From: Maylandia zebra
Taxonomy: Eukaryota > Chordata > Actinopteri > Cichliformes > Cichlidae
Direction of reading: 5' to 3'
Assembly (NCBI RefSeq): GCF_041146795.1
Contig: NC_135170.1
Coordinates: forward strand, 27,088,033 to 27,152,032
DNA length: 64,000 nt
Position 1 is the stretch's first letter. Each line of letters opens with the position of its first letter. A model generated the notes under the pieces. The model did not search any database and had not been told where the DNA came from. It saw nothing but the letters and a program-made list of their open reading frames with translations. Shown piece by piece: positions 793-64,000 of this stretch. A program made the translations under genes and the position numbers.

Positions 793-3358
793 TGATTGGT
801 AATTGGTAATTTATTTCAACATGTGAACAATATACAAGTACATTTAGAAAAGAAATGAGAGAAAAAAAATATACTATACAAATTACATACAAAAAAACCT
901 TCTGATTAATTTACATGTTGAAAGGGAGTGGGAAGAAGTATACACTTATTTAATCCCACCCCTGTCCCATAAATTATCAGTGAATATTTAGTCAGCTTCC
1001 TTACTGATATAATTTGTAATAAAAATAGTGAACAGATTTCTGATATACTATATACTATAATATCACATCATGAATTTTTTGTTTGTTTGTTTTTAAATAG
1101 AGACATTCACTTAATTTAAATATTTTCCTTTTCTTTATAGATCGAGAAGATCATATTTTTATAACTCTTTTTGAACAGTTTTATGTTTGGATATTGCTTT
1201 AATTCCATATTCAGTTTGTTCCATAGTTTCACTCCTTGAACAGAAACACAAAAGCCTTTTCTTGTAGTACGTACCTTCATTGTTTTGAAGTTACAAAAAC
1301 CCCTTAAATTATAACTTCCTTCTTTCAAAAAAAACATACTCTGAATATTACCTGGCAGTTCTTTATTTTTTGCTTTGAATAGAATTTGTGCTGTTTGGAA
1401 TTTCACTATATCGTCAATTTTCAATATTTCAGACTGCAAAAATAGTGAGTTTGTATGTTCCCTATAACCTGCATTGTGGATGATTCGAATTGCTTTTTTT
1501 TGAAGAGTAAAAAGTGAATGTAATGTGGTTTTATAGTTATTGCCCCAGACCTCTGCACAATAGCTTAAGTATGGTGAAACCAGTGAAAACAGTAGAGAAT
1601 ATGAAGTGATGTTCTGTCGAATACCTGTTTTGCCTTGTTTAGTACTGCAATGCTTCGTGATACTTTGGAATGAATATATCTTACGTGAGCTCTCCAGTTA
1701 AGTTTTTCATCTATTATTACCCCCAGAAATTTATTTTCACTGACTCTTTCAATATCAACACCATTTATTTGAATCTTTGCATTTGTATTTAAACTACTAT
1801 TTCCAAATAACATAAGTTTAGATTTATTCAAATTTAATGATAATTTGTTTTTATCAAGCCAGAACTTCACTTTACTTATTTCATTAGTCATATCCTCCAA
1901 TAAATTCTGCAGATCATCACCAGAGCAAAAAATGTTTGTATCGTCAGCAAAGAGAACCATTTTTAATACTTTGGACACTTTACAGATGTCGTTAATGTAC
2001 AAGTTGAAGAATTTTGGACCCAAAACTGACCCTTGGGGTACACCACAAGCAATGTCCATACATAAGGAGCAACCACCATTTATTTTCACAAACTGCTTTC
2101 TGTCACTTAAATAACTCCGGACCCAATCTAAAACTACCCCTCTGACACCATAACGTTCCAGTTTTCTTATTAATATATCATGATCTGTAGTGTCAAAGGC
2201 CTTTGTCAAGTCTATGAATAACCCAGCCACATATTGCTTTTTGTCTATGGAATTTGTGATGTATTCTATTGAATCTAATAGTGCCGATGATGTTGATCTG
2301 CTTGATCTGAATCCATACTGACTCTCAGTGAGTAGTTTATGTTTATCTATAAATTTTTCCAGTCTGTTTTTAAACAGTTTTTCAAGAACTTTTGAGAATT
2401 GAGGTAGTAAAGAGACAGGCCTGTAGTTTGTGAAATGGTGTTTGTTTCCAGATTTGTATAGAGGTATAACTTTTGCTATTTTCATTCTGTCTGGAAATCG
2501 ACCAGTTTGAAATGATAAATTACAGATGTATGTAAATGGTTTTATAATAGCCTCAATGACTCTTTTAACCACTATCATATCAATATCATTACAATCCAAA
2601 GATTTGTGATTTTTACATTTTTTGACAATTTCAAGAACTTCATTTTCATCAACGGCTGTGAGAAACATAGAATATGGATTTCTGTCAATCAGTGTATCGG
2701 GTTTTTCCTGTGCTTTCCCAGGATGAGTGATTGTTCTTGCTAAATTTGGTCCAGCAGTTACAAAGAATTCATTGAGACTATTTGCCACAACATCCATATT
2801 GTATTCTTCATGGTCATTACAAATGAAATACTTGGGATAGTTCTTTTGTCCAGTCCCACATTTTATAACACTGTTCAGGATTTCCCATAATCTTTTATTA
2901 TTATTTCTATTTATATCTAATTGCTTCTTATAGTATTCCTTTTTACTAAATCTAAGTATATTAGTTAACCTATTTTTATATCTTTTGTATCTGATTTCAG
3001 CATCTTTAGTTCTCGTTCTTAAGAACTCTCTGTATAGAGCATTTGTAATTCCTATCATAGATTGTAAAAATTGGAAGATGGTCACTTATGTCGTTAATCA
3101 GGAGTCCACTTACAGTCTTATTTTCAATGTCATTTGCAAAAATGTTGTCTATGAGAGTTGCACAATGTGATGTAATCCTGGTAGGTCTAGTAATTTTAGG
3201 GAATAGATTCATACAGTGCATTGTGTTTATAAATTCCTCAGTGGTTTTATGTTTATTTGGGTTTAGCAAATCAATATTGAAGTCTCCACAAATGAAAACT
3301 TTTTTGCGAGCTATTTCAATAAATGTTTCTTCTATCCAGTCTTTAAATGTCTCAATCA
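793..3358 (-). mobile_element. 5'-truncated L2-like non-LTR retrotransposon inserted in the Tc1 transposase
   Basis: The insertion is bounded by a 5-bp direct repeat GTGAT at 788-792 and 3359-3363; removing the insert and one copy restores the transposase codons K-R-D-H-R-T. The element is oriented on the minus strand. Its 3' end, at the low-coordinate side, finishes in short repeats of ATTACCA type rather than poly(A), as L2/CR1-group elements commonly do. The 5' end is truncated inside the endonuclease domain. Reverse transcriptase and C-terminal pieces follow in order. Clade assignment to L2/CR1 is by recognition of the protein motifs, not by alignment. Confidence 0.9.
1116..3358 (-). pseudogene. 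LINE ORF2 remnant (endonuclease end, reverse transcriptase, C-terminus)
   Basis: Reading from 3358 downward, the first piece has the AP-endonuclease motifs FICGDFNIDLL and SDHLPIFTI. The second frame (1565-3085) holds the reverse transcriptase: GNKHHFTNYRPVSLLPQFSK, the LFIDLTKAFDT block, GVPQGSVLGP, and the catalytic FADD box at about 1940. The third frame (1116-1439) is the C-terminal tail (KPLNIKLF-type). At least two frameshifts separate the pieces, one near 3.03-3.08 kb and one near 1.6 kb. The linker between SDHLPIF and the ALYREFLRTRTKDAEIRYKRY block looks shorter than usual, suggesting a small internal deletion. It cannot make a functional protein. Confidence 0.88.
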
Positions 3359-4600
3359 GTGATCATCGAACAATCAAGCGTTTCATTCAAAATAGTCAAC
3401 AGGGTCGCAAGAAGCGTGTGGAAAAACCAAGGCGCAAAATAACTGCCCATGAACTGAGAAAAGTCAAGCGTGCAGCTGCAAAGATGCCACTTGCCACCAG
3501 TTTGGCCATATTTCAGAGCTGCAACATCACTGGAGTGCCCAAAAGCACAAGGTGTGCAATACTCAGAGACATGGCCAAGGTAAGAAAGGCTGAAAGACGA
3601 CCACCACTGAACAAGACACACAAGCTGCTACGTCAAGACTGGGCCAAGAAATATCTCAAGACTGATTTTTCTAAGGTTTTATGGACTGATGAAATGAGAG
3701 TGAGTCTTGATGGGCCAGATGGATGGGCCCGTGGCTGGATTGGTAAAGGGCAGAGAGTTCCAGTCCGACTCAGACGCCAGTGGAGGTGGAGTACTGGTTT
3801 GGGCTGGTATCATCAAAGATGAGCTTGTGGGGCCTTATCGGGTTGAGGATGGAGTCAAGCTCAACTCCCAGTCCTACTGCCAGTTCCTGGAAGACACCTT
3901 CTTCAAGCAGTGGTACAGGAAGAAGTCTGCATCCTTCAAGAAAAACATGATTTCCATGCAGGACAATGCTCCATCACACGCGTCCAAGTACTCCACAGCG
4001 TGGCTGGCAAGAAAGGGTATAAAAGAAGAAAAACTAATGACATGGCCTCCTTGTTCACCTGATCTGAACCCCATTGAGAACCTGTGGTCCATCATCAAAT
4101 GTGAGATTTACAAGGAGGGAAAGCAGTACACCTCTCTGAACAGTGTCTGGGAGGCTGTGGTTGCTGCTGCACGCAATGTTGATGGTGAACAGATCAAAAC
4201 ACTGACAGAATCCATGGATGGCAGGCTTTTGAGTGTCCTTGCAAAGAAAGGTGGCTATATTGGTCGCTGATTTGTTTTTGTTTTGTTTTTGAATGTCAGA
4301 AATGTATATTTGTGAATGTGGAGATGTTATATTGGTTTCACTGGTAAAAATAAATAATTGAAATGGGTATGTATTTGTTTTTTGTTAAGTTGCCTAATAA
4401 TTATGCACAGTAATAGTCACCTGCACACACAGATATCCCCCTAAAATAGCTAAAACTAAAAACAAACTAAAAACTACTTCCAAAAACATTCAGCTTTGAT
4501 ATTAATGAGTTTTTTGGGTTCATTGAGAACATGGTTGTTGTTCAATAATAAAATTATTCCTCAAAAATACAACTTGCCTAATAATTCTGCACTCCCTGTA

Positions 4601-16815: not shown

Positions 16816-18713
16816 ATGACCTCTGAAACTCAAGGTAAATCTTTTCTGGCCTTTAACTATTAACAATTTTATAATTTAATGTTTATTTCTTATTTCTTAA
16901 CCATATTTTGCATTCTATAATGAATTTATGTATTACATTTTTATATTTACATGTTAATATTCTCTCCACAGCTAGTATGCAAATCATTGCTCTGATGGTA
17001 GTCTGGATATTGGGAACATCACTGGTGTTTCCACAGCCAGACACAGCAGCTACAGAGAAGGTGGCTGAAGATCCCATTCCCTGCTCTAAGGTGTGCACCT
17101 GTCAATACGATGATTTCATCTCGGAGCTCAACATGTACTGCAGTTTTCACAACTTCACACAAGTACCAACTGACATGCCACCATCCACTTATTCTCTCTG
17201 GCTGGATGGCAACCGGTTTACAACGCTCCCAGCCGCAGCTTTTCGGGATTTGACCAACCTGGACTTTTTAAATCTTCAGAATGGCCAGCTGACGACTATT
17301 GACCCTCAGGCTTTCAAGGGCCTTGGGTCACTAGCACATATGCACCTTGAGCGGAATCGCCTCCGGGTATTACCAGGTACAGTCTTCCAGAATACACCCA
17401 ACCTTGCTTCACTTAGTCTGCATAACAACCAACTCAGTCGCATTGAGGAAAGACTGTTTGCAGGACTCTCACAAATGTGGCTTCTTAACCTAGGTTGGAA
17501 CTCATTAACGGTCTTACCTGAGACAGCTTTCCATGACCTGCAAGGTCTGCGAGAGCTGATACTCGCAGGAAACAGACTTGCTTACTTGCAGCCACAGCTC
17601 TTTCAAAACCTTGGTGAGCTCAAAGAGTTAGATTTGACAGGAAATTACCTGAAGGTGATCAAAGCCAACGTGTTTCTTAAACTAACTAAACTGCAAAAGC
17701 TTTACCTGGGACAGAATCAGATTTTAACAGTGGTCCCCAGAGCTTTTGCAGGCATGAAGTCACTTAGATGGCTGGATCTGACAAACAATAAAGTGACTTC
17801 TCTACATGATGACACCTTCCTTGGCCTGCACAATCTCCATGTACTTCGCCTTTCTCACAACTCTATCACTGGAATTAGGCCTAGAACTTTCCGTGATCTG
17901 CAGTACCTAGAAGAACTAAGACTGAGTTACAACAGGATTAGAAATCTGGGGGATAGGATCTTCGAAGATCTTGGCCATTTAGAGGTCCTAGAACTAGAAC
18001 ACAATCAAGTGCAGGAAGCACACGTGGGGGCTTTCACAGGCCTCTCTCATGTGGCTGTCATTAACCTTTCTGGAAGCTGCTTCCGCACTCTTCCAGACCA
18101 AATGTTCAAAGGTCTGCCAAGGCTTCACAGCCTACATCTGGACAGAGGCTGCTTAACTAAGATAACAACTCAAGCTTTCAGAGGACTGTCTGGTTTAAGG
18201 AGGCTATTTCTGCAACGCAACAATATTTCTGTTGTGGAACACCAGAGTTTTGTGGATATGGTAGGCTTATCGGGACTTGATCTGAGTTCCAACAAGCTGG
18301 GTGCTCTCACCACCCATACATTCTCTGGCCTCAAGAATTTGGAGTACTTGCTGTTGTCCAACAATGAGTGTAGACAGTTTTTGCAAAATGGCACAAGGCA
18401 GATTCTTCCAAGGCTGCGCTACCTAGACTTGAGAGATAATGCCTTAACAAGCTTGGCCCCAGACTTCTCTGATAATATAGAAAAACTATTACTGTCTGGA
18501 AACAGGTGGAAATGTGACTGCAGCAACCTCCCACTTAGAAACTACGCGTTGAGGAAGTCACAGGTGATTCCTCGGCTAGTGGAGACCCACGCAGAAGGTG
18601 AAGAGCCTGATACGACAATCACCATATACAACAACATCACATGCACCAGCCCACCTCGCCTAGCAGGTCAGGACTTACGGGATGTGGACGGTGAACACTT
18701 CCAAAACTGCTAA
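16816..18713 (+). CDS. igfals: Insulin-like growth factor-binding protein acid labile subunit
   Basis: Two coding exons: 16816-16834 (ATG, 19 nt, donor GTAAAT) and 16972-18713, joined in frame as MTSETQAS-MQIIALMVVWILG, giving 586 residues. This matches the mammalian layout, where exon 1 encodes only the first few residues. A hydrophobic signal peptide follows, then a Cys-rich LRR N-cap (CSKVCTCQYDD), about 18-19 tandem 24-residue leucine-rich repeats and a C-cap (WKCDCSNLPLR ... ITCTSPP). Family diagnostics include LNLGWNSL, LAGNRLAYLQP, IKANVF, LSHN and LSGLRRLFL. The secreted protein holds IGF-IGFBP3/5 in a ternary serum complex and is made mainly in liver. Compared with human ALS as I remember it (605 residues), one LRR near residues 485-500 seems to be missing, and the C-cap loop lacks two cysteines. 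CPN2 is the nearest alternative but fits less well. An AATAAA lies at 19187. Confidence 0.93.
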
Positions 18714-48960: not shown

Positions 48961-49449
48961 GGAGGGGCTAATAATCGGCTCAGTCATTTTTAATGATCGT
49001 TGAAAGCCCCCCAGTAAACACCAGTATGTGGGCCCCACATGGGCTATGGGGGTTCCAAGTGGGGATGGGCTTACAATGGGCATCCAATCTGGGACCCACC
49101 TGGGTTAGCCAGGTAGGACCCACCTGAGCCAGCCCAGATGGGCTATGTTCTATGGGCACCATATGGGTAACATATGGGAAGTTGCATGAACAGGCAACTG
49201 AGTTTAATGACCTTAGTTAAGTATAATTATTAGTCATGTGTAAGTATAAACATGAATTAAGATGAAATAACTGATAATAAATTATGCCACAGGCAGCATA
49301 TGTATATTTAATTAATAACAAAATATACATATAAAATATATTAATATAAGTGAAACACAAAGAACAGATATGACTTAAAATTGTAAGACGCTTAATAAAA
49401 TAAAATAAATGGTTTTACATTTGAGTGGGAAAAAAATTTCACTCCATGT

Positions 49450-49637
49450 AGGAGGGTTAGGGTTAACCCTTTTTGAAATCTCGCGTTATTTCATGAAATA
49501 TCACGAGGTTTTCTTGAACCCGGCCCCCCCCCATTCTGGAACATTCTTCATTTCGCGCCCTTGGACAAAGCTGACAGTTAAGCTGACAATTTTTGGATTA
49601 AGTGCATCTTTGAGCTACGAACTTATCTGCAGTAAGG
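49450..49637 (+). promoter_or_regulatory. Possible promoter and first exon of the two-gene element
   Basis: A CpG-containing patch (CTCGCG, CACGAGG, CCCGGCCCCCCCCC, TTTCGCGCCC) is followed by a donor-like GGTAAGAAC at about 49637. A 5'-untranslated exon ending there could splice to the acceptor at 52024 in front of the transposase. This is inferred from composition and one splice motif. Confidence 0.3.
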
Positions 49638-51295
49638 GTAAGAACTTTTTTGACTTAATTTGAATCCCTAAGTATAAATGAAATGTTTACAAAGTTATGA
49701 TGCTGCAAAGTAATGAATGGCACAAGTGCTGGCAAACTTTTTCCTAGCACTCAAGCAATGCTAAGCTAGTTGAAATTTTTACGTAATGTTGGATTTAGCC
49801 AATTTTCACAGTTTGAAAGCATTTTCTGGTGTCCTGTATACTGCTTAACTAGCACCAAAATTAATTACTGCGTGTACTTAACATCAAGTTGTACTTAAAC
49901 GTTATCTTGGTTTTCTCTATGATTAGTATTAATAAAGGACTGTATTAGACCAATTTAACGAAGTTCTAATTTTTTAAGAGGAATATGGGAGGGTATTTTC
50001 ACTATCAGAGCAACCAAAATTGCTTTGGTGTTGTCTTTATCAGCTTCATTCCTCACGGCTAAGTGATGAGGGTAGGCCATGGCCATGAGCAACTAGTCCC
50101 CAGCTTTTGCCCCTGTGTCAGGAGCATGCACAGCAGTCAGAGAGGCAGATCAGTGAGCACTCTATTTCTGTAGAAGACATCATCATTTTTCTTGCCATTG
50201 TTTTCATTTTTCCAGAAAAAGCAAATAAAATATAGGTGTTCTTGATTTGTTTGGGTTTTTTTTTTCATACACATTTCATACACATTCATGTAACTTTATG
50301 TGTGTAGTTGTTTTAGTGAGAACTTAATCAGAAATAGTGTACTGACTCTAGAATCTGCCTCTCACTGTTGTGCAAGCTCTGTACATGAGGGAAACTGATT
50401 ATTTAAGCAGAACTGATCGGTCTTGTTAGGGCCACAGTGCCAACTCCTTTTACTATGATTGCTGTGGCCCTCCTTTTTTCCTTTTGTAATGTATATTTGG
50501 CTAGAATCTACACATTTATTTATTTATAAAAAAGAAAAGCAATTGCTCTTTGGATGTGGTTCTAAAGATCTGTGATCTTTAAGTGTTTGTCTGGTGCCTG
50601 ATTTGTGCATGTGCACTGTTATTTTAATTTGTTTCATTATGGCTTAAATTTGTTTGAATTTTGTGCATGCTCCTTTATCAACCTTCCTTCATGGACAGCT
50701 TGTGTGATTATTGGCCAGGAGGGTTTGCAATGATCTCAAAACTTGAGATGTTTGTTGTTTTGATTATGACTTGGCTGACTATGGCTACTTATAAATTGCA
50801 TAGTCACACTATTACATTAATATGTTATTAATATCTGTATATTGGTTTGATTTTGCTGTTGGACAGTGGAGTGAATAGTAGCAAGGGTTATGTGTGGTTT
50901 ATCTCTTTCTTTATTTTTACAGACTTTGACATAAGAAGCAGTGTATATTTCAAAATTCATTTATATTCAAAATTTGATTCATGGCAGAAATATACTAGTA
51001 GGAATCTTTTTTTGAGTTTGTAACAATTAGAATTGTTACTTTATAAAGCGATGTCAGGGTCTTTTATTGTAATACAACAGCTTTTAAGGCTGGTGTAAGC
51101 ATCACAGCAGATGTCTTTATGCCAAAGTAACTGAGGATAAAACACAGAAAAACATGAAGGAGATTTTCCTGGAGTGGCTTTTTAAATCAGATAACCTTAG
51201 AAATATTCTGCAGTTGAACAAAAACTGAAGAAAACCATGAATCAATATATGAACATTACCTGATGCTGCTGAAGTAAAGCAGAGCAAAGTTACAG

Positions 51296-51331
51296 AGGTT
51301 TTATTAGAGGTTTTATTAGAGGTTTTATTAG
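51296..51331. repeat. 12-bp tandem repeat, three copies
   Basis: The unit AGGTTTTATTAG is repeated three times exactly, inside the element's presumed 5' intron. Confidence 0.8.
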
Positions 51332-52030
51332 AGAACAAGCTGAGTTTTTTGCAATTTGGCATAATTTGGCACAAAAAAACAACTGACAACAGCGCTAAGC
51401 ACAACCGTACACTGATGTATAATAAGCAAGGGAATAATGTGGAAAACAGATTTCAGATGGGGAAACTTTTCTCGAAGTACACTACGAGAGAGCTGTGCAG
51501 GAAGTGTGATTTTTCTTTTTTTTTTCTTTTTTTTTTTTAAATTGTGGTGAAAACAAGATGGCAAGAGGGAATTAATGACAGTATTTATCAAATATGAAGC
51601 GTAGTTTGGATCTTCTTTTGCTGCTGGTTCAGTTAATTTTGGTTGGAGAGTGATGAAACCTGCATCATCAGAATTAGTGAGCTGTCGGCTTTCAGCCCTG
51701 ACGGAGTGTCAGTGTACCTGCCCTCGGCGAAAAAGCTGACATCTCACACATTTTGATGCATCGGTTCCGCGCTTTGTGTTTACATCTTTGTTCCTATATT
51801 TCTAATACACAAGTGACAGCCAAATGCTAAAGTGAATGAAATTTAAGAAAATGGCTTTATTAACCACGATTAATAACATGTAAATGTGCTTTGGATAGTT
51901 GTCAGGCCCCAATAATATTTCTGAGTAAGGACCTGTTGATGTAGTTAGTGTAACCTATCCAAGCTGTTACCCAGGTGACTGAAAAATACTACATTTTATC
52001 ATTTTTATACATTTTATCTTTCAGAAAGCA

Positions 52031-54088
52031 ATGGAGCAATCTGAGAGGACAAAGAGAAGAAAAATAGCTGCGAAAGTTGTTGAACATTTACGTCTCGTTT
52101 CACAGCAGAATGAGTTAGATCATCATCAGGACTTAATTTTTTTCTCAGATTCTTTTGAGAATAAACCCCTTGTGGAAGAGTACCATGATTGCGATGAACA
52201 TGCTGGAGTCAGTTCACAAAATGAACAATCTGCAGACATTTTTTATGATGCTTTGGACTTTGACGTGTTTCCTGAAGACTCTGAAAGTGGGGTGTCTGAG
52301 TTTAATGAATTTGATCTGGACGATGACTGTTTCGATTCTGATGCTTTTTCAGACACACCAGATGATACAAAAGGACTTGCAGAGTGGGCTGCAGAATACA
52401 ATGTGTCACATAATGCTTTGTCTGCCCTTCTTAAAATTCTTAGACAGAAAGGTCTTAATGTACCACTAGATGCTCGAACATTGATGTCAACTGCCCGCAA
52501 ATGTAATGTGATAAATGTGGCTGGGGGATCATACTATCATTTTGGTTTAAAGAATTCAATTGTTGCAGCATTGGAGCTTTTAGATTTTGATTTAAAGAAA
52601 CTAACAAACAATCTAACACTTAGAATTAATGTTGATGGTCTACCTTTATTCCGCAGCAACAATGTTAGTCTGTGGCCTATTCTGGGTAGAATCAAGGAGA
52701 TCCCAAATTGTGATGTTTTTGTGATCGGGTTATACTCAGGTACAACCAAACCTTCTAATGTACAGGAGTACTTGAATGACTTTGTACAAGATGTAAGGGC
52801 AATTATACAAGATGGAGTTCAGTATAATGGTGTCCATTTCAGTGTTGCTGCTCCAGATGCATTCATTTGTGATGCACCTGCTCGTGCTTTTCTTAAATGT
52901 GTGAAGGGACACACTGGCTATTATGCGTGTGAGCGGTGCACTCAAAAGGGCATGTATGTGAATAGGAGATTGTGTTTTCCTGAAATTTCTGCTGAGAAAA
53001 GGACTGATGAGACTTTTCGTGCTATGGCCTACAAAGAGCATCAGGTTGGGGTGTCACCTCTGAATGAGTTGGGTGTGGGACTAGTCTCAGGTTTTGTGCT
53101 GGACTATATGCACCTTGTGTGTCTGGGGGTAATGCGAAAACTTATTTATCTTTGGTTAAAAGGTCCCCGAAAATGCAGACAGTCTATGCAAATTCTAACC
53201 GTGATTTCAGCATTCATGGTTTCTGTCAGGCAACATTTGCCTAAAAGTTTTGCAAGGAAACCAAGATCTCTCCTTGAAATTAGCATGTGGAAAGCAACTG
53301 AATTGAGACAATTTTTGCTTTACACAGGCCCAGTTGTTTTATTTAATAATATACCAAGCCAAATGTATAGACACTTTATACTTTCATCTGTATCTATAAG
53401 AATTCTTCTTAGTCCTGATTTGTGTATTGAGAACTGTGATTATGCAGAGGATGTTTTAAAGCAGTTTGTGAAAGATTTTGGTTCGATTTATGGTCTTGAA
53501 TTTGTTGGTTATAATGTACATAATTTAATACACCTAGCTGAAGATGCGAAAAAGTTTGGACCTTTGGACAGTATTTCCTGCTTCCCATTTGAAACCTTCC
53601 TGGGTAAACTGAAAAAGATTGTGCGGAGGCCTCATAAACCTGTGGAACAAATTGTCAAGCGCGTCTATGAGACGCAAAGTATTCAGAAGAAAAGAAAAGA
53701 GAGGATGTCTGTTCCCTCTCCTCTTAAACAGCCTCATAACTCTGGACCAATAACAAGTGATCTTGGAACTTTTAAGCAGTACAGAAAATACACTGATGGA
53801 CAGACATATGTTTCTTGCGCCATGGGAGATAACTGTTTCAATGTAGGGGGAAAAATTCTTATTGTGGCAAACATTTTACAGGATTGCCAAGTTGTCAAAG
53901 CACTGTGTCAGGTCTTTGAAAACTGTAATGCCTTTTTCAGCTATCCATTGGACTCAACATGCCTTGGAATTTACTTTGTTTCAAATCTGTCTAAACAAAT
54001 GAATCTTGTATTACTTGATGAACTAAAACAGAAAATGGTGCTTTTGCCACTGAAGTCTGGATATGTGGCATTGCCACTGCTGTACTAG
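52031..54088 (+). CDS. TNP2-like (Transposase_21/CACTA-related) transposase
   Basis: An intact 685-residue frame, preceded by a strong acceptor (TTTATCTTTCAG ending 52024), so a 5' untranslated exon is likely. The N-terminus is acidic (residues 75-115, rich in D/E/S). The RNase H-like core shows INVDGLPLF (D202), FICDAPARAFLKCVKGHTGY (D281), a CERC knuckle, VLDYMHLVCLGVMRKL (D358, H361) and FPFETFLGKLKK (E521), the pattern of TNP2-type transposases that cut transposon ends. Basic KKRKERM lies near 557-563. No stops or frameshifts, unlike the other transposases here, which suggests recent activity. The next gene starts 27 nt after the stop. Family placement is from motifs; a domesticated host gene is possible but its position between element ends argues against that. 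Confidence 0.8.
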   Translation: MEQSERTKRRKIAAKVVEHLRLVSQQNELDHHQDLIFFSDSFENKPLVEEYHDCDEHAGVSSQNEQSADIFYDALDFDVFPEDSESGVSEFNEFDLDDDCFDSDAFSDTPDDTKGLAEWAAEYNVSHNALSALLKILRQKGLNVPLDARTLMSTARKCNVINVAGGSYYHFGLKNSIVAALELLDFDLKKLTNNLTLRINVDGLPLFRSNNVSLWPILGRIKEIPNCDVFVIGLYSGTTKPSNVQEYLNDFVQDVRAIIQDGVQYNGVHFSVAAPDAFICDAPARAFLKCVKGHTGYYACERCTQKGMYVNRRLCFPEISAEKRTDETFRAMAYKEHQVGVSPLNELGVGLVSGFVLDYMHLVCLGVMRKLIYLWLKGPRKCRQSMQILTVISAFMVSVRQHLPKSFARKPRSLLEISMWKATELRQFLLYTGPVVLFNNIPSQMYRHFILSSVSIRILLSPDLCIENCDYAEDVLKQFVKDFGSIYGLEFVGYNVHNLIHLAEDAKKFGPLDSISCFPFETFLGKLKKIVRRPHKPVEQIVKRVYETQSIQKKRKERMSVPSPLKQPHNSGPITSDLGTFKQYRKYTDGQTYVSCAMGDNCFNVGGKILIVANILQDCQVVKALCQVFENCNAFFSYPLDSTCLGIYFVSNLSKQMNLVLLDELKQKMVLLPLKSGYVALPLLY

Positions 54089-54115
54089 TTGGCTTCTTTT
54101 TGCTTTCTCACCAGC

Positions 54116-56918
54116 ATGCATCCATTTGCAGTTGTTGATTTTCTGGATGGTGGAGGTGTATCCATAATTCCTTGCAAGTGGTTTACAGGACCAGCGGAAG
54201 ATTCTTGTTTCTGGCCACCAGGGAGAGTCAATATCAATAAGGCTGTAAAGGATGGAGTTACTCCAGATGCAAACTGGTCACAGTACAGAGTTCGCATCTT
54301 GGGGAAAGCTGGTAAGAAGCATTTTTGTTTATTGCTACCAAATATTCTGTCATTAAAGACAGAACAAAAAATTTCCCTGTAATTTCACTAACAACATTTT
54401 GTTGATGTATGTCAAAAATTTACAGAAAACTGAAAATGCCAGGGTGAAACTGCGGAGGTCTGAAGCAACCTCTGATCTGCAGACTGAGTCAGATTCTGGA
54501 AGCAGATTGGGAAAAGGGAAGCGGAAAAGGAGGTAATTATGTTTCTTTAAAACGCCTTAAAAGCAACAATTTATTGTGGTGATTATAAGAAAAACAAAAA
54601 CAAGCTGACAGTATCTTTAGCAGACCATTACTGCTCACCAGATTTAGATATGATCTTAAAATAGCACTTTGTAACTTTTTGACTTTTAAAAATCAGTTTT
54701 AGACTCCTTTTGATGCCGGACTATACATTAATGTTTTTAGTTTGTAGGACTAACCAGTAACTAAATTGTTTGTGGGGTTTTTTTAATATTTTTTTAAATT
54801 CATTTTAAGGCCAGTGATCCAGTCAAGCTCGGATGAGGATTGGGACAACGCTGCGGAACAGCCAGAGACCTCATCAACATCAGCAATGGAGAATAGACAT
54901 TCAAGTGAAACTCCCCACCAGAACGTCACTCATCCATTTGTTCAGCTACCACCACCCTCAACTCCTTCACCTGTGGTTTCACAACCAGTTCCAAGACAAC
55001 TTGTACAAGCCACCAATACCAGCATGTTTGTACGTGTTCTAACCCTCCTGGAAGACATTAAGGAGACTCAGAGGATCCACAGTCGAATGCTACAGTCTCT
55101 CCTCAAACAACGTGATGGACCAGTTGCTGCAGTATTACCCGAGGGTGCTGTTTTTCCTCTCCGGACAGTCGCAGACGTGGAAGCACTGGAACAAAAACTG
55201 ATAGACCCTGTCTTCCTGAAAGAAGTGGTAAATAATAATGATGTAATGACAATAATTGATTAATGCCTCAATCTGCGTTTTATGCTAGCAGTTATGATTA
55301 AGGAAAGTTGGTGTTTGTTCAAACATGGTCAGTGCAATGAAGTGGCGGAAGGTGAGCTCCACAAAAGTTGCTGTTTTTGAAAATAAAATAAGTTGTACTT
55401 TACAAGTTGTGCCACGCCAAACCTTAAGAAATTACTTTTGGTGGATCAGTCATTTAGCTCTTTGCATTTACATCAGACAGTGTTTGACTTTGATACTTAA
55501 CTCTTTCTCAATCAAATAGCATCAAAATTATTAAGCCTAATTACTGTGTAGCTGTGCAGGTTTTCTTTTAGGTGTGACTGATGGTACTACTGTCGGTAAA
55601 ATTATTGTCCTTGTGTGTCCTAAGGTTGCTGTTGTGGCAGAGATCGGAGGGAGCACTGTTGATGAAGCCACCAGAAGAATGATGGCCTTCATTATGGACA
55701 ATGCTCTTTCCAGGCAATATAACTTCGTTGGGCGCCATGGAAAGCGGGAATTTCGAGGGCTTAAGATTTTTGAAGTGCTATATGGTAAGCTCATTAGTTG
55801 TAAGATATTTTGTTGATGTTTGAATAACAGATGCTCATTTCAGCTGTAGTCAGTCTTCCAATCAATTTATCAGAATCAGAATCAGAATACTTTATTGATC
55901 CCTGGGGGAAATTATATTTTGTTACAGTGCTCCATTTTAAACCAACATTAAGACAAGACAGACAATACGCTAACTAAGAATAGTACAATATATACATATA
56001 TATACATACATACATACATAAGTCACTTATAAATAAATATTTGGAAAAGAAACATGTGTAGCTGTAGCAGCAAACAGTGTGTTAAGTGGATGCGTTGTAC
56101 AGGGAGATGGCCACAGGCAGGAATGATTTCCTGTGTCGTTCAGTGGTGCTTTTCGGTAATCTCAGTCTCTCACTGAACGAGCTCACTGATTTAAGGTTTT
56201 AATACTTTGGTTCTACATTTATGTGAGATCTTATGCCGTGTCACAGTATAAATATAAGTATGTAACAAAAAAAGAGAATTACAGCTGTGTCTTTAGATTC
56301 AGTAATATAGTCTCACTTTCTTGTGGTCAATATCTGTGCTTTACAGGCAGCTTGAAAAAAAATGCTCTTACAAGCCAGATTACCAGAAAAGAGGCAGAAA
56401 AGGCAGCATCCAAGTGGTTTATTGGTGCAAGAGATAGAGGAGGAAATCGCATGGCAAGGGCACAGTGTCGCGTGCAGGAGAGGTATACCTTAGTGACTCG
56501 GTTTAGATAGACTGTGGAGATTAAATTAATTACAAATACTGTATTATTGAGGGAAATTATGTTTGGGTTTTTTATTTGGGGGGGGGGGGGCGGCATCAGC
56601 TCATGTTGTTCTGGAGGGTGATGGCTGCTGCCAGGAATGACCACATATTTCTCTCTGGTTTGCAGCATACTTGAAGACAGCTCTCACGAAACCGTTTTTT
56701 GGTTCCTCACTGTGTTACGGTATGTGAACAATTTCCAGTTATGTTTAGCAGTTTGTGCAATATTCTTCTTTGCACAATCAGCTCCAGGAACTCCAGCCAG
56801 TCAAACAACTTGATCAGCACAACTTTCAAAACAACTCCAGTAGTATTGCAAATCTGATGTTAGTTGTGAAAAAATGCACTTTTTTTTTTTCAGGACCAAT
56901 GGATCACTGAATGAGTGA
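54116..56918 (+). CDS. DUF4806-domain protein of the transposon
   Basis: Exons: 54116-54311 (after acceptor CTTTCTCACCAG), 54426-54532, 54810-55227, 55625-55784, 56347-56482, optional 56666-56719, and 56894-56918. Product about 365 residues. The N-terminal module (FAVVDFLDGGGVSIIPCKWF ... CFWPPG ... VRILGKA) and ARVKLRRSEATSDLQTESDS precede a basic KGKRKRR patch, a Pro/Ser linker, a short coiled segment (VLTLLEDIKETQRIHSRML) and the DUF4806 domain (FPLRTVADVEALEQKL ... RRMMAFIMDNALS ... GRHGKREFRGLKIF). It is likely the accessory DNA-binding partner of the transposase. Oddity: the first join is one nucleotide out of phase unless a 20-nt microexon (54360-54379) is used or this copy carries an indel. 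Confidence 0.68.
55862..56190. repeat. L2-type LINE 3' fragment
   Basis: CAGAATACTTTATTGATCCC followed by TGGGGGAAATTA is the familiar 3' end of teleost L2/Maui LINEs in antisense. The GGAATGATTTCCTGTGTCGT...CTCAGTCTCTCACTGAACGA block belongs to the same family. It lies in an intron of the DUF4806 gene, so the two-gene element has accumulated at least one later insertion. ACAT/ATAC simple repeats sit at about 55990-56020. Confidence 0.7.
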
Positions 56919-57101
56919 GAAGCTGTGTTTCAGTGCATTTCTTTTTCGTTTAAACTGTATAACATTGATTTGTTATTGTTTTGTGTATACTGGGGACCTT
57001 TTTTGTCAACATGTTCTCTAAACAAAAAAAATATTTGTATAGTATATAAAAAATTACTGTTATACTGCATACTGTTTTAAAATGTCATATTAATCAGTAT
57101 T

Positions 57102-57107
57102 AATAAA
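57102..57107 (+). terminator. Poly(A) signal of the DUF4806 gene
   Basis: AATAAA lies 184 nt after the proposed stop codon and just before the 174-bp repeat array, fitting transcription of the element's genes ending inside its right end. Confidence 0.5.
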
Positions 57108-57169
57108 AAAGATAAACTGACTTTGTTGTACAGGTGATTTAAATTTTAGCTTACTGTAGTATCCAAAAT

Positions 57170-57831
57170 CCCATCTGGGCAAGCACACTTGGGGCCACCA
57201 TGGAAACTGAGGACAAAAGTAGCTGGGTCCCAGGTGGGTAACCCAGGTGGGCCCCAAATATCAGACCCGCTTCTACCCATCTTGGTCCCACACTTGTTTA
57301 TTGGCTGGGCCTGATTTGGGGCCCATCCAGAGCCCGTCATTAACCCATCTGGGCAAACACACTTGGGGCCACCATGAAAACTGAGGACAAAAGTAGCTGG
57401 GTCCCAGGTGGGTAACCCAAGTGGGCCCCAACTATCAGACCCACTTCTACCCATCTGGGTCCCACACTTGTTTATTGGCTGGGCCTGATTTGGGGCCCAT
57501 CCAGGGCCCGTCATTAGCCCATCTGGGCAAACACACTTGGGGCCACCATGAAAACTGAGGACAAAAGTAGCTGGGTCCCAGGTGGGTAACCCAAGTGGGC
57601 CCCAACTATCAGACCCACTTCTACCCATCTGGGTCCCACACTTGTTTATTGGCTGGGCCTGATTTGGGGCCCATCCAGGGTCCGTCATTAACCTATGTGG
57701 GCAAACACATTTGGGGCCACCATGGAAACTGAGGACAAAATTAGCTGGACCCCAGTTGGGTTTCCCAAGTGGGCCCCAAATATTAGCCCTGATGCTCCCT
57801 ATTTGGGCCCCACGTATGTGTGTTGACTGGG
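57170..57831. repeat. 174-bp tandem repeats, about 3.8 copies
   Basis: Unit starts CCCATCTGGGCAA at 57170, 57344 and 57518, and a diverged start at 57692, give an exact 174-bp period. Units are rich in GGGCCC and CCCA..TGGG short inverted motifs. As 174 is divisible by three, the minus strand stays open across copies and shows a repeating 58-residue reading frame that is best seen as a by-product. The array is probably the subterminal repeat zone of the two-gene transposon. Confidence 0.9.
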
Positions 57832-58107
57832 CCAGATCGTAATCGTGATTAAAATTCGATTAATTGAGCAGCCCTAGTGCACAGCTTTATTGAAATGTGC
57901 AAACACGCATGGAAATACTGTACATAAAGCTAAAATGGAGTTAATAGAAATATTTTGAGCTTAAAAGTCAGTGTCTGGTATGACCACCTTTATTCTTCAA
58001 CATAGCTGGAACTTTCTTAGACAAGCTTTCTTGTAGTTTCTTTAAGCAGTCTTCAGAAATAGGTCTCCAGGCTTCTTGAAGGACATTGTTATTATGCGTT
58101 ACAATAT

Positions 58108-62108: not shown

Positions 62109-63173
62109 TCACACCTCTGACACCTCACCCCTGACAGGGAGGTGTAAATCAAGACCATGGTGGCAAAAGCGGTTCACGGCCGACCAGCTGGCCTTCTGCT
62201 TAATGAAGAGACGCAGCTTGTCCCTGAAGGTCTCTCCTAGAAAGCTGTAGATAATGGGGTTGAGGCAGCTGTTGGAGAAAGCTGCCAGATTAACAATGTG
62301 GCCTGTGAGCGGGTAGTCGTGCCACAGGGTGGTAGCAGTCCTCTGCGATGGGTCAGCTGTGCCCTGCAGTAGCTGAATGCTGATGAAGACGTTCTCTGGC
62401 AGCCAGCAGATGAAGAATACCAGAACCACCACCACAATCATGCGCAGAGCCTTCTGCCGCCGTGGCCACAGTCCACGGTGCTTCTGGGCCCTCATGAGAA
62501 TTCGCCCAATCAGAGAGTAGCATAGACCAATGATGGAGAAGGGCACCAAAAAGCCAATGGTTACCTCCAGCCACTGAATCTCAAAGACATTGGCGAAACA
62601 GAAGTGCACCTCACCTCTGTGCTGGGTCTGCACAATGGTGAAGGGGAGAAGCGTGGCCAGGATGGAGGCCATCCAAATGAGGCCACAGCTGAGCTTGGCG
62701 TGCTGCATAGTCCTCAGTGGGTTGCTGCTCATGGAGCTAGCCAAGGCGATGTACCTGTCAAAGCTCATCCACGTGAGAAAAAAGATGCTGCTGTACATAT
62801 TGACCTGCAGGAAAAGTGACATGAAGGTGCAGAGGACGGCGTAGTCGTAATACTTTTCATTCAGATTAAAGACCTCAATGAGGGAATCTGCCACCAGGAT
62901 GAGGTCAGCTACAGCCAGGTTAACAAAGTAAAGATCGGGGATGGTCATCTTCTCTCTGTGGTTCAGGTTCACCACCAGGATTAAGATGTTACCAATAAAT
63001 CCAATAGGAAAAAGGAGGATGGTATACAGGCAGGAAAGGAAGAGACCAACGATGTATGACTGGTATTTGTCTGAGTTTTCGCTTAAGTCTGTAGCATTGT
63101 ATGGATATGAAGTGTTCAGTTGTTCCGTACTGTTTACATATATCCAGACCCAAGAGATTGTCTGCCCTTCCAT
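62109..63173 (-). CDS. gper1: G protein-coupled estrogen receptor 1
   Basis: A single uninterrupted 354-residue frame. The N-terminus carries three N-glycosylation sequons (N14, N20, N26) before seven membrane helices. Diagnostic segments: [20 protein letters not shown] (TM1), [20 protein letters not shown] (TM2), [20 protein letters not shown] with DRY (TM3), FCWLPENVF-type [14 protein letters not shown] (TM6) and [20 protein letters not shown] with NPIIY (TM7). Length and sequence are as expected for fish GPER1, and the start [18 protein letters not shown] parallels zebrafish as I recall it. The receptor signals through Gs and EGFR transactivation in response to estrogens; in fish it is known for maintaining oocyte meiotic arrest. 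Intact, no anomalies. Confidence 0.97.
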
Positions 63174-64000
63174 ACTGTCTGTGGTCGGCCTGTCCTAAAT
63201 CATAAGCCAAGTGTAAGTCACCTGTAGCTGCTACATCATTACACCACAGTAGTTCCCAGCTTCGCCTCTTCAAAGGGTGAATCATCTATGCTGTGACGGC
63301 ATGCTGGCAGAAGTCAGGTGAGTGGAGAGAATCTTTTATGGCTTCTTTGACCCCATGCTTACATCAAGTTTCATCTACCAAAAGATTTTTGAAGCCGAAC
63401 AGGAGCGCCTCCATGTCTTAAAATGGCCATTGGCCCTCAGCTTCTCCAATTCACATCACAACTGCAGTCCTGAGATTAAAGGGTGGCTTTTTTTTCTCCT
63501 CTTTTGAGTCATCTGATCTGAGTCCTGATTTGTCTCTTCAAGTCCACGTGTATCTCTATTCAGCAGGCTTTGACCCAAGATGTTATTGCTGTGACACCTG
63601 AGCTGTCTGAACAAAAACGCCCCTCCAAAAACAACAACATGAAAGACAATTAGGGGTAAAATCTTGGAAAAACAACACAAATCATTATAATCATGATACA
63701 AATGAGATATATCAGGTACATAACAGTTACTTAAAAATACTATCAAAGATAAAACATGAAAATTATACACCTTAAACAGAACATTTAGGGGAATAAATGA
63801 ATAGCAACAACCAAATGTGCACATTAACATTCAAGCTTTAGACTTAAACAGATGCATTGAAATCCTTCTTTAAAATCCTCAACCAATCCGAACACCCTCC
63901 CTGGTGAAACGCAGAGTGTATTCTGTATGGCAAACTTGACCTTTAACAAAAATTCTCAGCTCCCAGGGTTTTATTCCCATCAGAGTAAACCCCTCTGCAA
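63174..64000 (-). other. Upstream region of GPER1
   Basis: No second coding exon is recognisable. 5'-untranslated exons may lie here or beyond the window. Plus-strand ORF 63322-63507 and minus-strand ORF 63456-63830 have no domain signature. Confidence 0.45.

Follow-up and report, generated by a model that had tools for sequence, protein, structure and literature searches.

In the maize En/Spm system and in plant CACTA transposons, as described in the available part of PMC8195511, two proteins are encoded between repeat-dense subterminal regions, deletion derivatives lacking the transposase occur, the tnpA and tnpD products of Spm derive from transcripts that overlap and are spliced in alternative ways, and the subterminal repeats are bound by TnpA. 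Canonical CACTA elements have CACTA ends and generate a target-site duplication (TSD) of 3 bp (PMC4158355, PMC8195511, both in the sections available). The EnSpm/CACTA-Mirage-Chapaev-Transib (CMCT) clade is defined, in the accessible text of PMC12730594, by a transposase with the residues D, D and E together with two C and three H, by TSDs of 2-5 bp and by ends that are CA..TG in most cases; the same text describes the Nuwa lineage of PIF/Harbinger, in which the transposase is accompanied by a separate DNA-binding protein of the Myb/SANT type and the TSD is 3 bp. DUF4806 has been described, in the part of PMC11075544 available, as a subtype of the BEN domain, and the BEN-domain proteins presented in the excerpts at hand are host chromatin or transcription factors. 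Here, we describe a transposon of 8,822 bp located in a 64,000-nucleotide stretch of the Maylandia zebra genome (the window, G000:C4:27088033-27152032, in a genome of 962 Mb), in which a transposase gene is directly followed by a DUF4806 gene. We consider it likely that this is a two-protein cut-and-paste transposon of the CMCT clade, an analogue of En/Spm in which the DUF4806 protein would be the end-binding partner.

The features of the element are the following, the exons of the second gene being predicted by splice-site reading without transcripts:

49008 to 49009, no strand: left TSD, CC, the same as at 57832 to 57833
49010 to 57831, plus strand: complete transposon, 8,822 bp, delimited by its sister copy L043 and by sharp ends elsewhere
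49010 to 49036, plus strand: left terminal inverted repeat CCCAGTAAACACC..GTGGG, imperfect, about 27 bp
49010 to 49180, no strand: left subterminal region dense in TGGG/CCCA, 17 in 170 bp
52031 to 54088, plus strand: transposase gene, 685 amino acids, a single open frame without internal stop; putative key residues D202, D281, C300-x2-C303, H361, H497-x3-H501 and E519, from a five-sequence alignment
54089 to 54115, plus strand: spacer of 27 nucleotides (nt), from the transposase stop codon (54086 to 54088) to the second ATG at 54116
54116 to 54311, plus strand: predicted exon 1 of the second gene, a conserved N-terminal region
54426 to 54532, plus strand: predicted exon 2, a lysine/arginine-rich patch, frame discontinuous in the window copy
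54810 to 55227, plus strand: predicted exon 3, in which the DUF4806 domain begins
55625 to 55784, plus strand: predicted exon 4, core of the DUF4806 domain
56347 to 56510, plus strand: predicted exon 5, carrying the stop codon
57165 to 57831, no strand: right subterminal region dense in TGGG/CCCA, 56 in 666 bp
57170 to 57783, no strand: right tandem array, 3.5 copies of a 174-bp unit
57805 to 57831, minus strand: right terminal inverted repeat, reading inward CCCAGTCAACAC..GTGGGG
57832 to 57833, no strand: right TSD, CC, from the comparison of copy ends

The limits of the element are defined by its other copies. A sister copy on C2 (L043, 8,815 bp) aligns along the entire element with identical end points, and differs from the window copy by 28 substitutions in 8,806 aligned bases (99.7% identity at aligned bases) and by seven insertions or deletions (indels). 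Further ends were searched in the whole genome, where all counts are lower bounds since only the best candidates are scored: at least 14 matches were obtained with the left-end query (201 bp) and at least 62, in 20 places, with the right-end query (last 132 bp). Of the left ends, 12 were inspected (the window, L043 and 10 that were fetched); 11 of them start exactly at CCCAGT in unrelated flanks, the exception being a copy on C33 in which the first ~51 nt are missing. The right ends were inspected in 15 places (the window, L043 and 13 of the other 18; three of them, L074-L076, with one common flank), and all terminate at ACTGGG. Both ends are present in eight copies of the window type, hereafter family A (window, C2, C7, C16:27.09 Mb, C15, C11:1.19 Mb, C1 and C14:14.45 Mb), and each is flanked by a 2-bp TSD (CC, GC, AT, CT, TT, AT, CT and CA), an outcome with a chance of ~2e-10 at 1/16 per copy; a 3-bp TSD was found in none of the eight. 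Since the window and C2 copies are almost identical, these data suggest a recently mobile DNA transposon. The initial annotation had placed an intact mobile unit, with two genes and repeat-rich ends, between exactly these two positions, expecting further copies with sharp ends and short duplications and holding that copies with other boundaries would contradict it; the agreement of 11/12 left and 15/15 right ends and the eight duplications bear it out.

The transposase frame, uninterrupted as first described, is open in both the window copy and L043, and 682 of its 685 residues are identical in the two. In an alignment of five transposases of this genome, D202, D281, C300, C303, H361, H497 and H501 are invariant and E519 is kept in four, being replaced by Q in L032; the roles of these residues are our own assignment. 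The pattern is that of the clade, with D, D, E, C(2)C and H(3-4)H, and the 2-bp TSD, observed in the eight family-A copies and in a copy of the diverged family B (C2:25.8 Mb), lies inside the range of 2-5 bp. The termini are instead CCCAG..CTGGG in both families, CC..GG rather than the CA..TG that the source presents as usual and not universal, and a DUF4806 partner is unmentioned for the clade in the part of that source available (PMC12730594). As judged from these sequence characters, the element fits the CMCT clade. The only Pfam family recognized in the transposase is DUF4218 (27.5 bits, cut-off 27). The label "TNP2-like" did not hold for the window frame, which is not among the six matches of this genome to Transposase_21 (TNP2), though relatives are; one of these, L008 (same locus as L002), is 26% identical to the window transposase. 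An AlphaFold model of the transposase alone was unusable (mean predicted local distance difference test, pLDDT, 39.9), and the best match of its profile to solved structures had an expectation value (E) of 0.56.

The second gene lies in the same orientation, 27 nt downstream, as the initial annotation had it. When exons 3-5 are joined, the DUF4806 domain proposed there is recognized by Pfam (PF16064) with 29.1 bits in family A, 29.9 in family B and 39.7 in a third family represented by C19 (cut-off 25), and DUF4806 is the sole family above its cut-off in this protein; Transposase_24, typical of plant TNPA, gave no match in it up to E 1. The gene had been called nearly intact, and rightly so; in the predicted exon structure of the window copy, the frame is lost in exon 2. 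A whole-genome scan with the DUF4806 profile was without a match among the 39 candidates scored, probably owing to the division of the domain among several exons, and protein searches with exon 1 and exon 4 were used in its place. A match of the second protein to the solved structure TRP_F43W/E39L (E 5.5e-5, 26.3 bits, 35 positions) was discounted, no stretch of it passing alone. Intron 4 contains, at 55868-56180, an apparent short repeat insertion, which we take to be of the type of short or long interspersed nuclear elements (SINE/LINE-like); it is also found in the C2 copy and therefore predates the split of the two.

The layout of the two genes suggests how both proteins could be produced from one transcript. 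In family A, the spacer closes with a pyrimidine tract (88%) and an AG, one base ahead of the second ATG, that together make a candidate 3' splice site, and another candidate acceptor lies ahead of the transposase ATG; in family B an AG is found at the same offset before the second ATG, with a weaker tract (56% pyrimidine), and in C19 the best candidate acceptor lies 36 nt upstream of it. We infer a single pre-mRNA starting near the left end, whose leader would join either the acceptor ahead of the transposase ATG, giving the transposase, or the acceptor ahead of the second ATG, skipping the transposase exon and giving the DUF4806 protein. This protein, with its reported BEN-type domain, would then coat the TGGG/CCCA-rich arrays at both ends, join them and enable the transposase to cut at the CCCAGT termini, the part played by TNPA for TNPD in maize En/Spm.

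The parallel with TNPD/TNPA, drawn when the locus was first annotated, stands in part. The two genes, the repeat-rich ends, the presence of deletion derivatives that have lost the transposase and the candidate acceptor before the second ATG agree with it, and the order of the genes is also similar to that of En/Spm. The element is not a canonical CACTA: the termini are CCCAGT/CCCAGC instead of CACTA..TAGTG or CAC..GTG, the TSD is of 2 bp instead of 3 bp (none of eight), the transposase is one open frame with DUF4218 and without a direct Transposase_21 match, and the second protein carries DUF4806 instead of a TNPA-type Transposase_24 domain. The ends and the TSD exclude the element from the canonical CACTA type and, together with the lack of a Transposase_24 match, make it a functional analogue at most. 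Nuwa is similar in combining a transposase with a separate DNA-binding protein; it differs in superfamily, in the domain of the partner and in its TSD (PMC12730594, as far as available). Among BEN-domain proteins, the present ones share a DUF4806 domain over the Pfam cut-off in three families and differ from those described in our partial sources in being encoded within a transposon.

The substrate of the proposed end-binding protein would be the terminal arrays, where the GGGCCC-rich subterminal repeats seen at first inspection correspond to the 174-bp tandem unit at the right end and to an excess of TGGG/CCCA at both ends. In descriptive comparison with dinucleotide shuffles, the left 170 bp of family A contain 17 motifs against 8.1 +/- 1.8 and the right 666 bp contain 56 against 25.7 +/- 3.6 (in both cases none of 300 shuffles as high), the last 176 bp alone 12 against 6.9 +/- 1.8 (1/300), the left 320 bp of family B 20 against 10.1 +/- 2.0 and its right 200 bp 14 against 7.4 +/- 1.9 (0/300 as high for each). 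The interiors of the A and B elements have 31 and 85 motifs, rarer than most shuffles (20/20 and 19/20 as high or higher). Bins at the A ends hold 9-15 TGGG/CCCA per 150 bp; in the distant transposase locus L007, which has no DUF4806, no bin exceeds 4 per 150 bp over the 7.5 kb read, in which the left end was not located.

Arrays of this kind might also be bound for another purpose, the second protein being an element-encoded transcription regulator or anti-silencing factor that acts on promoter activity or methylation. We regard this as rather unlikely, while giving it appreciable weight: BEN-type proteins are mostly chromatin-related (PMC11472053, PMC11075544, in the parts available), the left array is located where a promoter would be, and plant TnpA is also termed a regulatory protein in the accessible text of PMC8195511. 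The right-end array, however, is dense as well though far from a promoter, and a regulatory role would be compatible with end binding rather than exclusive of it.

The association of a DUF4806 protein with this type of transposase extends beyond the recent copies. Family B, whose loci include C3:18.66, C2:25.8, C6:5.68, C24:3.54 and C12:8.59 Mb, has a transposase 46% identical to that of the window, followed in unchanged order by exons 1, 3, 4 and 5 with identities of 42, 48, 55 and 64%. Its right end, ATGTTGGCTGGG, is found in three copies, and the right array of the family is GGGCCC-rich and of ~186 bp; its left end, CCCAGCCAACATGTATATATGGG, is found in one copy, at C2:25.8 Mb, which spans 19,397 bp and is flanked by the TSD TC. 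Other occurrences of the repeat that this copy interrupts (L007, L051) have the site empty. No left end was located for the C3 copy, and in the C6 copy it is lost by truncation. BLASTN between A and B aligns a portion of the transposase and, in opposite orientation, two short stretches of 119 and 77 bp, with no further similarity. In C19 the transposase is 39% identical to that of the window, and the DUF4806 match is the strongest one. Thus, in three families, at 39-46% identity of their transposases, the second gene has stayed directly downstream of the transposase gene.

Between A and B, the proportions of synonymous (pS) and nonsynonymous (pN) differences, with synonymous sites saturated in both genes, are 0.77 and 0.31 over 224 codons of the second gene, with exon 2 and some of exon 3 omitted, and 0.76 and 0.36 over 668 codons of the transposase. 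Judged from these proportions, coding selection acted on both genes and was at least as strong on the second gene as on the transposase. The ratios of nonsynonymous to synonymous rates (dN/dS) between family A and fragments on C17, 1.5 and 2.3, are based on very few changes and are uninformative.

More distant transposases are organized differently. Eleven such loci (L007-L011, L032-L034, L036, L038 and L039), two of which were aligned to the window transposase with identities of 26 and 23%, have no second gene in the 3' flank read, ~3-4.3 kb for L007-L011 and 0.9 kb for the other six; a weak exon-1 match at L032, L038 and L039 was discarded, lying inside the transposase frame in another reading frame. 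In a tree of 15 transposases, taken as unrooted, those with DUF4806 form one side of a branch with support of 100/100, a value inflated by near-copies. The loci L007-L011 and L032-L039 represent several transposase families of broadly this type, with multiple copies and open frames, and the mutual similarity of L007-L010 ends at or just after CCATATGGG.

The pairing of the two genes was then followed over the genome. The transposase search gave at least 71 matches, of which 33 were used in the comparison, the other 38 being distant families and further pieces of derivative copies. Seventeen matches extend at least to query position 674, at the 3' end, and all of them have exon 1 of the second gene behind; 16 of these pairs were recovered among the 17 exon-1 matches, and the C19 pair, in which exon 1 lies ~190 nt past the transposase stop, was detected by tblastn (E 3e-6). 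Conversely, 16 of the 17 genomic exon-1 matches sit 3' of a transposase match, with a gap between the matched stretches of 30 or 36 nt in 13 pairs and of 53, 53 and 553 nt in the other three. The lone unpaired match (C12:1.02 Mb) is a fragment of the element with 83% identity; a family-A right end lies on the same strand at a distance of 3.8 kb. Exon 4 gave at least 31 matches: 14 within 8 kb 3' of a transposase match and, among the other 17, 14 within 1.5 kb of a terminal array on the same strand (2 of family A, 12 of family B). One of the latter, L080, consists of family-B-like exons 4-5 and a 186-bp array, with no transposase within the 5.5 kb read. In total, a transposase or the terminal array of the element is found next to 28 of the 31 exon-4 matches. 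The initial annotation had regarded independent occurrence of the two genes as fatal to their association, and these counts uphold the association.

An improbable alternative is that DUF4806 stems from a host gene which an ancestral element took up a single time, and that it travels as a passenger without a role in transposition. Capture of host fragments is frequent in CACTA transposons (PMC8195511, in the part available) and annotated DUF4806 genes are reported in zebrafish, Hydra and beetle in the partial sources at hand; against this reading, the gene order is kept in three families, coding selection is apparent between A and B, and exon 1 is retained at every transposase 3' end that was reached. 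That the genes are neighbours by chance or through nested insertion, forming a chimeric element, has practically no probability, since nothing beyond their proximity speaks for it and it is refuted by identical ends in copies with unrelated flanks and by the genome-wide pairing with its nearly constant gap.

Several observations weigh against the reading of the DUF4806 protein as an end-binding partner. The profile of the second protein yielded two matches up to E 10 among solved structures, neither of them a credible relative. Under the exon model, exon 2 of the window copy is out of frame, the sister differing there by a 2-nt indel, and L043 has a 1-nt indel in exon 5, so that neither copy is fully intact in its predicted second gene; the product would perhaps be supplied by other copies. 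The motif TGGG/CCCA was picked after seeing the ends, and its counts are therefore descriptive and do not amount to a pre-planned test. C19 has no dense array from ~1.3 kb 5' to 5.8 kb 3' of its transposase (at most 5 motifs per 150 bp) and does not fit the rule of an array at each end, unless its arrays lie further out. The arrays, moreover, might be used by the transposase itself or by a protein of the host. Finally, 3 of the 31 exon-4 matches (C3:2937767, C22:19575679 and C1:2896330) lie beside neither a transposase nor an array and may be fragments or separate genes, and independent host DUF4806 genes, more diverged than the exon-4 matches, may exist.

Some of the copies have a composite or amplified structure. 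L041 (G000:C16:27086660-27095256) and L042 (C15:27664555-27682880) are family-A relatives with ends 97-99% identical to those of the window copy and with interior pieces, where compared, 82-92% identical; their transposase is disrupted or deleted, and in the second gene the frame of exon 4 remains open. Copies on C7, C11 and C33 resemble them, judged by protein matches. Such mosaics suggest mobilisation in trans or exchange of ends. The three family-A right ends with identical flanking sequence (L074, L075 and L076, at C20:29.62, C39:0.32 and C20:36.25 Mb) therefore represent one insertion, multiplied by duplication or within a larger repeat. On C17 (G000:C17:2806872-2833932), four fragments with the transposase 3' end and exon 1 lie on one strand, spaced by 12.6, 6.9 and 6.9 kb, with an extra transposase piece at 2813498; from its sequence, the block looks as if part of the element had been amplified in tandem.

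Elsewhere in the window, a reverse-transcriptase frame (1119-3085, minus strand), presumably of a non-long-terminal-repeat (non-LTR) retrotransposon, lies next to a frame-broken transposase (3061-4267, plus strand) that we take to be of the Tc1/mariner type. Two further open frames, of 612 amino acids (16875-18710, plus strand) and 361 amino acids (62112-63194, minus strand), presumably resemble a leucine-rich-repeat host gene and the seven-helix receptor GPER1, respectively.

In the literature on DUF4806, as far as its text was available, no link to a transposon was found, and among the papers listed for animal CACTA/EnSpm elements and the BEN domain, likewise available in part, no such pairing was found; Repbase and Dfam were outside this search, and the family itself may already be named there. 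The available table of PMC7642931 places DUF4806 among transposase domains and reports 69 and 54 DUF4806 genes in two species of Hydra against 0-6 in its five other columns. We tentatively suggest, as a possibility somewhat short of probable, that DUF4806 is mainly transposon-borne, belonging to BEN-type proteins that bind the ends for a distinct branch of CMCT transposases in animals, with CCCAG ends and 2-bp TSDs, and that the numerous DUF4806 genes of Hydra, those enriched in a beetle and those of the zebrafish chromosome-4 block are largely such elements or were domesticated from them. The model can be tested directly, as an open transposase, precisely defined ends and the terminal arrays are all available. 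If it is true, the element would be an animal counterpart of the En/Spm two-protein system built with an unrelated partner, DUF4806 would acquire its first function, and the origin of annotated DUF4806 genes may be hinted at.

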